DNA from: Clostridium rhizosphaerae
GTDB lineage: Bacteria; Bacillota; Clostridia; Clostridiales; Clostridiaceae
DNA: 64,000 bases
Reading direction: 5' to 3'
NCBI RefSeq assembly: GCF_016765585.1
Contig: NZ_JAESWC010000001.1
Location: forward strand, 124,001-188,000
Shown: positions 15,655 through 57,398 of the stretch, piece after piece
Position numbering within the stretch: position 1 is the stretch's first letter
How the letters are laid out: every line of letters begins with the position of its first letter
The notes under the pieces: model-generated
The model's database searches: none
Told to the model about the DNA's origin: nothing
What the model saw: the letters and a program-made list of their open reading frames with translations, nothing else
Made by a program: the position numbers and the translations under genes

Positions 15655-15780
15655 GGAGGTTAAAGTCATAAATTATTCCTAGTTCGGCAAAAAGGAGGCG
15701 AAAACCCTAAATGGGTCTTTGCGGGCATTTACGAGCGGAAGCGAGTGGGCTTTTGCCCAGTGTTTCCGACTAAAAGGAGG
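15655..15780 (+). repeat. SD-flanked hairpin repeat, copy A (degenerate plus complete unit)
   Basis: The complete unit runs from AAAGGAGG at 15691 to AAAAGGAGG ending at 15780. It contains hairpin 1 (GCGAAAACCC, loop TAAAT, GGGTCTTTGC) and hairpin 2 (GGGCA ... TGCCC) and the conserved tail AGTGTTTCCGACT. A shortened unit (15655-15690) precedes it: GGAGGTTAAAGTC then TTCGGCAAAA. The last AAAGGAGG is the ribosome site of the HAD gene at 15786. Confidence 0.8.
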
Positions 15781-19093: not shown

Positions 19094-19120
19094 AAAGGAG
19101 GTCAATAATTGACCTCCTTT
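19094..19120 (-). terminator. Perfect 12-bp hairpin after the LysR gene
   Basis: AAAGGAGGTCAA and TTGACCTCCTTT with loop TAA. On the minus strand it lies 69 bases past the LysR stop, followed by a T-rich stretch. Probably the terminator of that gene. Confidence 0.65.
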
Positions 19121-27671: not shown

Positions 27672-27680
27672 TTTATAATT

Positions 27681-27909
27681 CCTCCTTTTAGTCGGAAGCA
27701 CTGAGCAATTAAAAACTCTCGCTCCCCTTCGGGCACAGGGTAACTTAAGACATTCGCTTCGCTCATAAGTTACCCGCTAAAGTCCATTCAGGACTTTAGC
27801 CTCTAAAATTGCTCGTTAAAGCCCATTTAGGGCTTTAGTTCGGGGTAACTTAAGACGCTCGTTTCCACTCACAAGTTACCCGTTAAAGCCCATTTAGGGC
27901 TTTAACCTC
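27681..27909 (-). repeat. SD-flanked hairpin repeats, copy B (tandem and nested)
   Basis: On the minus strand there are three hairpin-1 sequences: GTTAAAGCCC/GGGCTTTAAC, a second TAAAGCCC/GGGCTTTA, and GCTAAAGTCC/GGACTTTAGC. GGGTAACTT/AAGTTACCC stems follow the first and the third. The third unit lies inside a larger stem GAGCAATT/AATTGCTC, so one unit appears inserted in another's loop. The block ends in CTTCCGACTAAAAGGAGG, the ribosome site of the RidA gene. Confidence 0.8.
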
Positions 27910-27915
27910 TATTTA

Positions 27916-28780: not shown

Positions 28781-28786
28781 CTCTGC

Positions 28787-28862
28787 AGTTAAAAGCCCTA
28801 AATACACTTTTACAGCTGCCTAGCCAATGATTTAATTTCTCGGTGTATCCGACTAAAAGGAG
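28787..28862 (+). repeat. SD-flanked hairpin repeat, degenerate copy F
   Basis: GTTAAAAGCCCTAAATACAC resembles hairpin 1, and the end GTATCCGACTAAAAGGAG matches the repeat tail. Hairpin 2 is eroded. The final AAAGGAG is the ribosome site of the MocR gene at 28871. Confidence 0.6.
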
Positions 28863-46391: not shown

Positions 46392-46496
46392 CAGTGTTTC
46401 GAGTGAAGGGAGGTTAAAGGTCTAAATGACCTTTAACGGGTAGTTTGCGAGTGATAACGAGCGTCTTAAACTACCCAGTGTTTCGAGTGAAAGGAG
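46392..46496 (+). repeat. SD-flanked hairpin repeat, copy C
   Basis: The unit is bounded by direct repeats CAGTGTTTCGAGTGAA (46392 and 46476), each running into AAGGGAGG or AAAGGAG. Inside are hairpin 1 (GTTAAAGGTC, loop TAAAT, GACCTTTAAC) and hairpin 2 (GGGTAGTTT ... AAACTACCC), both perfect. The last AAAGGAG is the ribosome site of the ATPase gene at 46503. Confidence 0.88.
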
Positions 46497-48415: not shown

Positions 48416-48506
48416 AAAGGAGGCTAAAGTCCTAAATGGACTTTAGCGGGTAGTCTGCGAGTGGGAACGAGCGTTTTAGACTGCCCAGTGTTCCGACAAA
48501 AGGAGG
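48416..48506 (+). repeat. SD-flanked hairpin repeat, copy D (cleanest copy)
   Basis: It is bounded by AAAGGAGG (48416-48423) and AAAAGGAGG (48498-48506). Hairpin 1 is GCTAAAGTCC, TAAAT, GGACTTTAGC; hairpin 2 is GGGTAGTCT ... AGACTGCCC with one G-T pair. The tail is AGTGTTCCGAC. A TATAAT at 48400-48405 would place the RNA start a few bases before the unit, so the unit would form nearly the whole tldD leader. Confidence 0.9.
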
Positions 48507-48514
48507 AATTAAAT

Positions 48515-49894
48515 TTGATTCTAAAAAACTTAAACAAGTATTCAAGCTTTATATCTCAATATACCGAGCTGAGAGTTCAGGAGAATAGGACACTTAATAT
48601 AACCTTCCTGAATGGAAATTTAGTAGGAAACGCTAAGGATATTACAAATGGGGTTAGTGCGAGAACATATAAAGGAGGTTCCTGGGGCTTTGCTTCCAGT
48701 GCCGAGGTTGACGAAGAAAGTATAAAATCTGTAATAAAAGCAGCTAGTGATAATGCTGTTTTCCTTGATTCCAGAGAGAAAAGAAACAAAGCGTTTTTTA
48801 ATGGAACAGCAGATTCCTTTGAAAAAAACTTTGGCACACAGAAGACAAGATTATCACAGCAGGAGATTATGGATTTCATAAGAGAAGTTGATTCCTATAT
48901 GGCATCCAAGTATCCAAACCTAAGCGAAAGAGTTGTTAGCCTTAGATGTCTTGACATGGAAAAATCGCTCATAACCTCTGATGGTGCTTGCCTTTATTCT
49001 CTTTTGCCTCGTTCTAACTTTATTATCTCTATGACTGTAGTAAAAAATGAGGAACCTATAAGTTTATACGATGTTTTCGGAGGACTTGGCCAGTTTGAAG
49101 ATAACTTTTCATCTCCAAAGGACTTTTACAAAAAAATAGACAGCTTATATGAACACTTAATAAATAAAAGTGAAGGTATTTATGCTGAAGCAGGCTTAAA
49201 GGAATGTGTGCTGCATCCTAACTTAGCTGGAATTCTTGCACATGAAGCTATTGGACATACTACAGAAGCTGACCTCGTACTTGGGGGTTCAATTGCAGGA
49301 AGCTATATGAATAAGCAGGTGGCAAGCCCTCTTGTAAGCCTTGTTGACTATGCTCATACCTATGAGGGGAAAATATGCCCTGTTCCTATTTTTATGGATG
49401 ATGAAGGAACTACAGCAGAAGATGTTGTTATCATAGAAAATGGAACTCTTAAAGGATATATGCACAACAAAGAAAGTGCAAGGCATTTTGGGGATGTTCC
49501 AAAGGGCAATGCAAGAGCTTTTAAATTTAATGATGAGCCCCTTATAAGAATGAGAAATACCGCAATTCTTCCCGGAACAAGCAAGCTTGAGGACATGATT
49601 GCCTCCATAGAAGATGGCTATTATCTTATGAATACAAACAATGGTCAGGCTGATACAACAAGCGAGTTCATGTTTGGGATTGTGCTGGGCTATGAAATAA
49701 AGAACGGCAGGCTTGGAAGAGCTATAAAAGATACAACTATATCAGGAATTGCCTTTGATGTTTTAAAGAGTACAACTATGGTTTCCGATGATATGGTTTG
49801 GCTAAACGGCGGAATGTGCGGCAAGAAACAGCCTATAACTGTTGGAATGGGCGGCCCTGCCATCAAATGCAAAGTTAATATAGGGGGTAGATAA
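48515..49894 (+). CDS. tldD: TldD metalloprotease subunit
   Basis: The 459-residue TldD has the zinc motif HExxxH in LAHEAIGHTTEADLVLGG and the conserved C-terminal NGGMCGKKQP segment. TldD and TldE form a peptidase that trims peptides, including microcin-type RiPPs. The TTG start at 48515 is eight bases after AAAAGGAGG, which is the end of repeat copy D; the frame stays open further upstream through the repeat, but no ribosome site supports an earlier start. tldE follows after one base. Confidence 0.9.
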   Translation: MILKNLNKYSSFISQYTELRVQENRTLNITFLNGNLVGNAKDITNGVSARTYKGGSWGFASSAEVDEESIKSVIKAASDNAVFLDSREKRNKAFFNGTADSFEKNFGTQKTRLSQQEIMDFIREVDSYMASKYPNLSERVVSLRCLDMEKSLITSDGACLYSLLPRSNFIISMTVVKNEEPISLYDVFGGLGQFEDNFSSPKDFYKKIDSLYEHLINKSEGIYAEAGLKECVLHPNLAGILAHEAIGHTTEADLVLGGSIAGSYMNKQVASPLVSLVDYAHTYEGKICPVPIFMDDEGTTAEDVVIIENGTLKGYMHNKESARHFGDVPKGNARAFKFNDEPLIRMRNTAILPGTSKLEDMIASIEDGYYLMNTNNGQADTTSEFMFGIVLGYEIKNGRLGRAIKDTTISGIAFDVLKSTTMVSDDMVWLNGGMCGKKQPITVGMGGPAIKCKVNIGGR

Positions 49895-55187: not shown

Positions 55188-55360
55188 CTCCTTTCATTCG
55201 AAACACTGGGTAATCTATAGTGTTCGTTATCACTCACAGATTACCCGTTGAAGTCCATTTAGGACTTCAACCTCCTTCCAGTCGGAAGCCTGAGCAATTA
55301 AAGATTACTCGCTTCTGCTCGCTAATTGTTCCTTAAAATTCATTTAGGACTTTAACCCTC
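55188..55360 (-). repeat. SD-flanked hairpin repeats, copies E1 and E2 in tandem
   Basis: E2 (55188-55279) has perfect stems GTTGAAGTCC/GGACTTCAAC and GGGTAATCT/AGATTACCC. E1 (55271-55360) is more worn: GTTAAAGTCC/GAATTTTAAG and ACAATTA/TAATTGCTC-type pairing. They share GGAAGGAGG at the joint. The start of E1 (GAGGGTTAA) supplies the stop codon of the php gene, and the end of E2 the ribosome site of yhfS. Confidence 0.88.
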
Positions 55361-57375: not shown

Positions 57376-57398
57376 AAAGGAGGCACTAAGCCTCCTTT
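57376..57398 (-). terminator. Hairpin inside the yhf operon
   Basis: AAAGGAGGC and GCCTCCTTT with loop ACTAA, between yhfT and the amidase-like gene. No strong T-run follows on the minus strand. It may lower downstream expression or protect the upstream message. Confidence 0.5.

Follow-up and report, generated by a model that had tools for sequence, protein, structure and literature searches.

The window (the whole 64,000-nucleotide stretch of Clostridium rhizosphaerae DNA analyzed here) contains a family of two-hairpin units that stand before genes, one of them a TldD/PmbA gene. A cmsearch of the window with a covariance model built from 31 units gave seven matches on both strands. The model alignment included the window units 15693, 46408, 55188, and 48418 (as L001), and their matches are partly by construction. 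In total the window holds four good stand-alone units, one composite array, and eroded pieces at three places (Table 1). The genes behind the units match HAD, Ribonuc_L-PSP (RidA), GntR plus aminotransferase (MocR type), ABC ATPase, TldD/PmbA, and YhfS-like domains, which confirms the gene assignments of a preliminary description of this DNA, and they are functionally unrelated.

That description had listed the repeat family at six places. A repeat or a piece of one is present at all six, but several boundaries and unit counts were wrong. The interval 15655-15780 holds one good unit, preceded by a mere eroded fragment. The copy at 27681-27909 does contain units and is actually a composite of nested and tandem pieces. 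The copy at 28787-28862 is unit-derived and only a relic, and of the two units given for 55188-55360 the first is good and the second is eroded. Separately, intergenic palindromes at 19097-19117 and 57379-57395 carry AAAGGAGG..CCTCCTTT on both strands and so present GGAGG without any unit.

Table 1. Units, parts of units, and eroded pieces located in the window
Feature	Position	Strand	Evidence
Unit before the TldD/PmbA gene (start TTG at 48515), the unit under study	48418..48506	+	cmsearch 48418-48505, 104 bits; sequence read
Hairpin 1 of the 48418 unit, 10-bp stem, loop TAAAT	48423..48447	+	sequence, covariation, fold
Hairpin 2 of the 48418 unit, inner GCGAG..CGAGC part	48448..48486	+	sequence, covariation, fold
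3' SD of the 48418 unit (AAAAGGAGG), taken as the element's own	48498..48506	+	left/right SD comparison, empty sites
Unit before the ABC transporter ATPase gene; short tail-like stretch on its left	46408..46496	+	108 bits
Unit before the YhfS-like gene	55188..55276	-	107 bits
Eroded second unit, in tandem with and upstream of the 55188..55276 unit	55277..55360	-	read directly; absent from cmsearch matches
Unit before the HAD hydrolase gene	15693..15779	+	76 bits
Eroded unit fragment preceding the 15693 unit	15655..15692	+	read directly
Composite array of nested and tandem units before the RidA (Ribonuc_L-PSP) gene	27672..27911	-	27822-27911, 76 bits; 27718-27805, 72 bits
Decayed unit (relic) before the MocR-type gene	28784..28862	+	17 bits, E 0.013

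Structure of the unit

Alignment of the units defines about 85 bp of DNA with two hairpins and a Shine-Dalgarno sequence (SD) at the 3' end. The order is GGAGG, hairpin 1, a second hairpin, a tail, and AAAGGAG(G/A) at the 3' end. Hairpin 1 (TTAAAGTCC-TAAAT-GGACTTTAAC) has a 10-bp stem and the loop TAAAT. The last G of GGAGG takes part in the first pair of this stem; GGAG forms the foot of the hairpin, with zero sequence between the presumed cut site and hairpin 1. The outer stem of hairpin 2 is GGGTA/TACCC or, alternatively, GAGTA/TACTC, and its inner part reads GCGAG-Y-GNRA-R-CGAG in many copies. The tail is AGTGTTYCGACT (AGTGTTYCGA). The ends of the unit are two separate palindromes and not terminal inverted repeats.

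Both stems had been described as keeping their pairing while their sequence changes, and this is borne out by the alignments, including that of 80 copies outside the model. Among the 31 aligned units, pairing is kept in 94.4% of cells, and double-sided changes occur in 16 of the 22 pairs. The 80 matches from loci outside the model (79 distinct) have 97.2% of cells paired in an alignment made to fit the structure and so biased in its favor. This set contains 286 double-sided changes compared with 75 in shuffles, and its covariation score is 0.478 compared with 0.212 in shuffles; the scores of slid controls are 0.094 and 0.091. Centroid folds of three window units form both hairpins and leave the 3' SD mostly unpaired; the second half of a C. 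drakei unit folds otherwise. Stem covariation is no proof of RNA function because palindromes can be corrected by strand switching.

Copy number and arrays in the host genome

The C. rhizosphaerae genome contains about 150-190 copies of the unit. BLAST with one unit found 64 matches, and the covariance-model search found at least 153 (150 of them listed), confirming the family. A hairpin 1 pattern with one mismatch allowed matched 192 times compared with one match for the reversed control pattern, and chance is therefore excluded as the origin of the recurrence. The 150 listed units form 110 groups of 1-4 units (77, 27, 5, and 1 groups), and neighbors in arrays are spaced 83-86 bp from start to start in 37 pairs. 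Units are 92% identical (median), and at most 99%, to their closest relatives elsewhere in the genome, so the copies are of mixed age.

The 14 host places with a hairpin 1 match and no listed model match are all nested or variant units. Nested units sit in the hairpin 2 loop of other units, directly behind GAG, as seen by comparing C. magnum L290 with C. carboxidivorans L277; the nested C. magnum unit has a different tail, CCCGAAGGGGAG. The host examples are L189, L190, L198, L199, and L200, and the composite array of the window is another. A nested hairpin 1 in L196 (near 2217-2241) has an inverted loop, ATTTA for TAAAT, as hairpin strand switching would give.

Placement before start codons

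For 104 of the 150 listed units, what follows is the start codon of an ORF with 60 codons or more, in 95 of these cases 5-11 nt behind the unit; for 39 it is another unit. The remaining seven, judged by eye, run into further unit sequence (four) or into an ATG with an ORF below the length rule (three). All 150 listed host copies are sense-oriented and precede a start codon or more unit sequence, and the gene behind a unit has an SD at the usual distance from its start codon. The placement directly before start codons claimed in the preliminary description is thus upheld, with none of the listed copies lying away from starts. In other genomes, named or metagenome-assembled, 28 of 33 pattern matches lead into the start codon of an ORF with 50 codons or more, three into another unit, and two (L218 and L226) into an ATG that fails the length rule. 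The genes behind units that were read appear functionally unrelated. Many units are inside operons, since 49 of 111 first units lie -100 to +60 nt from the end of an upstream same-strand ORF.

GGAGG also occurs outside units. In 184 kb (the window plus sequence of G001, the nearest relative compared), it is found as 29 SDs between genes, 33 SD-like sites within coding sequence, 23 sites between genes without a start codon, and 139 sites in coding sequence; the corresponding counts for GGAGGAA are 3, 6, 3, and 28, which are small numbers. None of the 150 listed copies occupies an intergenic GGAGG that is not an SD, though such sites exist, and motif targeting alone is therefore not the whole story. 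Placement is narrower than the GGAGG 5-mer gives, so selection or a longer signal must help.

Filled and empty sites

The preliminary description proposed that the element enters ribosome sites and restores them. Filled and empty orthologs and paralogs support this proposal. In C. drakei L263, 85 bp separate AAAGGAGG from AAGAG; in C. carboxidivorans L264 the two adjoin, with 0 bases between them. The 400 nt behind the site are 99% identical and the 400 nt before it are 71% identical ungapped; despite the latter figure, the stretch adjoining the site is nearly identical by eye. The same site is empty in C. thailandense (L274) and carries an array in C. muellerianum (L267). Paralogs within one genome differ in the same way. 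C. drakei L270 is filled and L283 is empty, with 96-98% identity over ~120 nt around the start and 48% ungapped over 400 nt, and C. carboxidivorans L287 is filled and L292 is empty, with 99-100% identity. Some units are shared by descent, as in C. drakei L288 and C. carboxidivorans L271. Apparent unit remnants are present in C. muellerianum L279 and L289. The empty site of C. carboxidivorans could also have arisen if the two AAAGGAGG copies recombined and a unit was lost precisely, and such loss is possible at other single sites; two of the empty sites examined, C. thailandense L274 and C. carboxidivorans L264, agree.

Two further loci were noted. C. drakei L276 lacks a short segment, kept in C. 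muellerianum and C. thailandense (L273, L280), that lies between the SD and a GAG upstream of it; the unit starts at this GAG. C. magnum L266/L286 was rejected as a filled/empty pair, as the coding starts agree and the upstream flanks do not.

Comparison of 26 unit-bearing host genes with G001, reading 220 nt per gene, matched 12. One of these (L184) was dropped because its match spanned two joined query pieces, one is filled in both genomes, and ten are unfilled. Thus 10 of the 11 usable host-filled genes are unfilled in G001, all with GGAG before the start. The reverse case also exists, with L166 filled in G001 and host L112 empty. The tldD gene has no unit in G001, where its leader differs by more than the unit, and only the tldD stretch of the window aligned with G001 over 120 kb. 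Occupancy of orthologous loci therefore differs, and the unit is not identically present everywhere.

These comparisons bear on the possibility that the unit is a dispersed cis-regulatory or mRNA-stabilizing leader RNA whose hairpins and doubled SD act on translation or stability, with selection keeping a regulon. Conserved loops, covarying stems, the sense orientation of all listed copies before genes, and the absence of copies from non-SD GGAGG sites among the 150 listed are as expected of such an RNA. The 10 unfilled genes in G001, the unrelated functions of the genes read, and the first units close behind upstream ORFs argue against it. Rfam likewise gave no gathering match in the window; seven loci searched at E <= 0.5 matched nothing but rRNA and, below threshold, one miRNA. 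A regulatory RNA is disfavored as the primary explanation because occupancy is patchy, and we consider it unlikely; the unit may have a secondary regulatory effect. The filled and empty sequences support the identification of the unit as a mobile element.

Origin of the second SD

The SD at both ends of the unit had been interpreted as a target duplication. This interpretation is not supported, because the left and right SDs differ too often and a filled/empty pair speaks against it. The two ends were compared in 51 isolated host units; 28 of 79 were omitted with GGAG inexact at one end. The left and right 8-mers agree in 12 of the 51. AAA stands before GGAG in 17 of the left and 39 of the right copies; GGAG continues with G in 48 left copies and with A in 17 right ones. 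The 3' SD is often GGAGA where the 5' SD is GGAGG. In the C. drakei pair, the empty L283 site is AAAGGAGGAATTG (GGAGG^AATTG), and the filled L270 site reads AAAGGAGG, the unit ending in AAAGGAGA, and then AATTG. From the unequal SDs and this pair, the 3' SD seems to travel with the element, and its assignment to the element itself, not to a target duplication, is strongly supported.

GAA or AAA follows GGAG in 82 of 107 unit SDs compared with 20 of 136 native host SDs, and in 11 of 13 unit SDs compared with 10 of 108 native SDs of G001. AA is found behind GGAGG at the empty sites L264, L283, and L292 and also at the distant L268, L274, and L275; it is absent at the distant empty sites L280, L281, and L284 and at 8 of the 10 unfilled G001 sites. 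The exact right boundary is uncertain because GAA/AAA is enriched at units, yet most of the unfilled G001 sites have no AA. The preferred target may be GGAGG^AA, or the AA may be contributed by the element; both are possible.

Distribution among genomes

The host belongs to the same family as C. drakei (G007). Nine of 30 genomes, the host included, match the unit at E <= 0.001, with 0 to 53 matches per relative and 53 in G001. The best matches of G011 and G025 lie in rRNA spacers and the best match of G018 lies beside a 5S gene, and therefore fewer genomes have true SD units. The weaker matches L069:1501-1595, L070:1501-1591, and L067:115-204 (37, 31, and 64 bits) are two-hairpin units of similar layout in the 16S-23S spacers of G025 and G011 or just before the 5S gene of G018; these are either related to the SD unit or look-alikes.

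A strict pattern run over genome contigs returned 28 stretches, from which records near the window may be left out. Clostridium sp. OS1-26 has 10, C. carboxidivorans five, C. drakei and C. magnum three each, and C. thailandense, C. lacusfryxellense, C. manihotivorum, and C. muellerianum one each; three are in metagenome-assembled genomes labeled Clostridia, Clostridiales, or Bacillota. Seven of the strict-pattern genomes have 0-28 tail matches per genome. The known distribution of the unit is narrow.

Search for a mover

No cognate transposase was found for the unit. The host has one intact Y1 transposase gene (L031:946-1914, minus strand), whose 322-aa product is RAYT-like by length. This gene lies between inverted GGGACGGTTAACAA-type repeats other than the unit, and its 3.3-kb locus contains no unit. 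Relatives of the protein are multi-copy in other genomes, with 28 matches in G028, a genome without units; RAYT-like proteins number one each in the host (G000) and G001. C. drakei (G007) and G011 have no Y1 match (PF01797, Pfam), and C. drakei has units. Y1/RAYT is not supported as the mover, since the host Y1 does not track the units and C. drakei has units without Y1. Movement by a Y1 (HUH) transposase, as for REP-type or IS200/IS605-type elements, is accordingly improbable. Features in its favor are the hairpin at each end, a GGAG that forms the foot of the first one, and insertion 3' of a short motif without target duplication; the foot, however, reads GGAG and not GT[AG]G.

A longer, gene-carrying version of the unit was also sought and rejected. 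The extra hairpin 1 places of the host were accounted for by nested and variant units. A tail search of six Clostridium genomes gave 53 matches, 30 of which were read. Among these, 27 follow a recognizable hairpin 1 and three (L295, L299, and L304) follow eroded units. All 30 run, by eye, into a start-like codon or another unit, and none has a gene inside. No unit match was found in the plasmids, phages, or viral contigs searched.

The result that no enzyme was found, the 8-base repeat at both ends, and copies seen only in SDs would fit an enzyme-free spread in which short homologies at AAAGGAGG recombine and selection favors SDs in good positions. Recombination on its own would hardly be expected to yield about 150-190 copies in a single genome or an insertion of exactly 85 bp, and this route is very unlikely. 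RNA-mediated insertion, in which the unit RNA enters the SD of mRNAs or exposed DNA and is then reverse-transcribed, would suit a structured, covarying unit found only in SDs and only in sense orientation among the listed copies. GGAG in coding mRNA should be hit too, and the Rfam searches of the window and seven loci matched no ribozyme, which makes this route exceedingly improbable. The question posed is what moves an 85-bp two-hairpin unit into SDs with no transposase seen alongside.

Proposed mechanism

The unit is probably a non-autonomous mobile DNA element of ~85 bp that inserts 3' of GGAG(G) in SDs and rebuilds the SD. Units stand directly 3' of GGAG(G) in the SD of a gene, and the gene would keep a usable start signal through the 3' SD that the element most likely carries. 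Insertions in coding sequence are presumably lost, and SD insertions would be tolerated because the signal is rebuilt. The carried 3' SD would also serve as a fresh landing site behind which later copies insert, and the 83-86 bp period of the arrays would follow from this. The structured ends may be recognized by a trans-acting transposase or recombinase. This mover perhaps acts on single strands, much as in IS200/IS605 transposition, as suggested by a cut after GGAG(G), no target duplication, hairpins at both ends, and a GGAG at the 3' end. Nested copies in hairpin 2 loops behind GAG are compatible with cleavage of exposed single strands after GAG. A wider and more tentative proposal, which we hold to be possible but somewhat doubtful, is that the unit represents a new class of small element that homes to functional ribosome-binding sites and not merely to GGAGG, stays harmless because it brings along the SD that it displaces, provides this SD as the next landing site, and is moved by an enzyme or through RNA.

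Two stable hairpins, and sometimes several SDs, stand before ~100 unrelated genes of one genome. The natural pairs with and without the unit allow its effect on mRNA stability and translation to be measured.

Comparison with known systems

Streptococcal BOX, Neisserial Correia, and other MITE-like repeats are small structured mobile repeats between genes. They are not known to be tied to the SD or to carry one. The unit does not fit a MITE in the strict sense, as its ends are two separate palindromes and its right SD is no copy of the left. The kind of element is thus known. SD targeting with self-repair was not found described in the available portions of the open-licence literature searched (PMC6006769, PMC2267715, and PMC4227781 included), and neither this literature nor Rfam yielded a family with the unit layout, consistent with the preliminary description, which knew of none.

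REP sequences and BIMEs with RAYT (TnpA-REP) are, in the relevant passages of PMC6006769, like the unit: short, imperfect repeats that form hairpins, scattered in large numbers as single copies or clusters, with a short motif at the hairpin foot. The definition given there requires a GT[AG]G tetranucleotide at the hairpin foot; the unit has GGAG instead, is SD-sited in all 150 listed copies, and brings an SD that is most likely its own. Units were not seen on either side of a Y1 gene. IS200/IS605 ends and their non-autonomous copies share with the unit, according to the same passages (PMC6006769), insertion 3' of a short motif, an equivalent motif at the right boundary, hairpins close to each end, and no target duplication. 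The unit differs in its 85-bp size and in a hairpin 1 that abuts the presumed cut site and would leave no room for an internal 5' guide, and C. drakei has no TnpA by Pfam.

IS607 and group B IStrons, as portrayed in parts of PMC4227781 and PMC6188088, target GG and have neither terminal inverted repeats nor a target duplication, as appears true of the unit, and one Turicibacter intron homing site in these sources is GGAGG. IStrons are also, like the unit, harmless by design (PMC4227781; PMC6188088). The unit contains no intron and no gene, and its neutrality would come from the carried SD and not from splicing. If this is true, rebuilding the translation signal that it interrupts is another route to a harmless selfish sequence.
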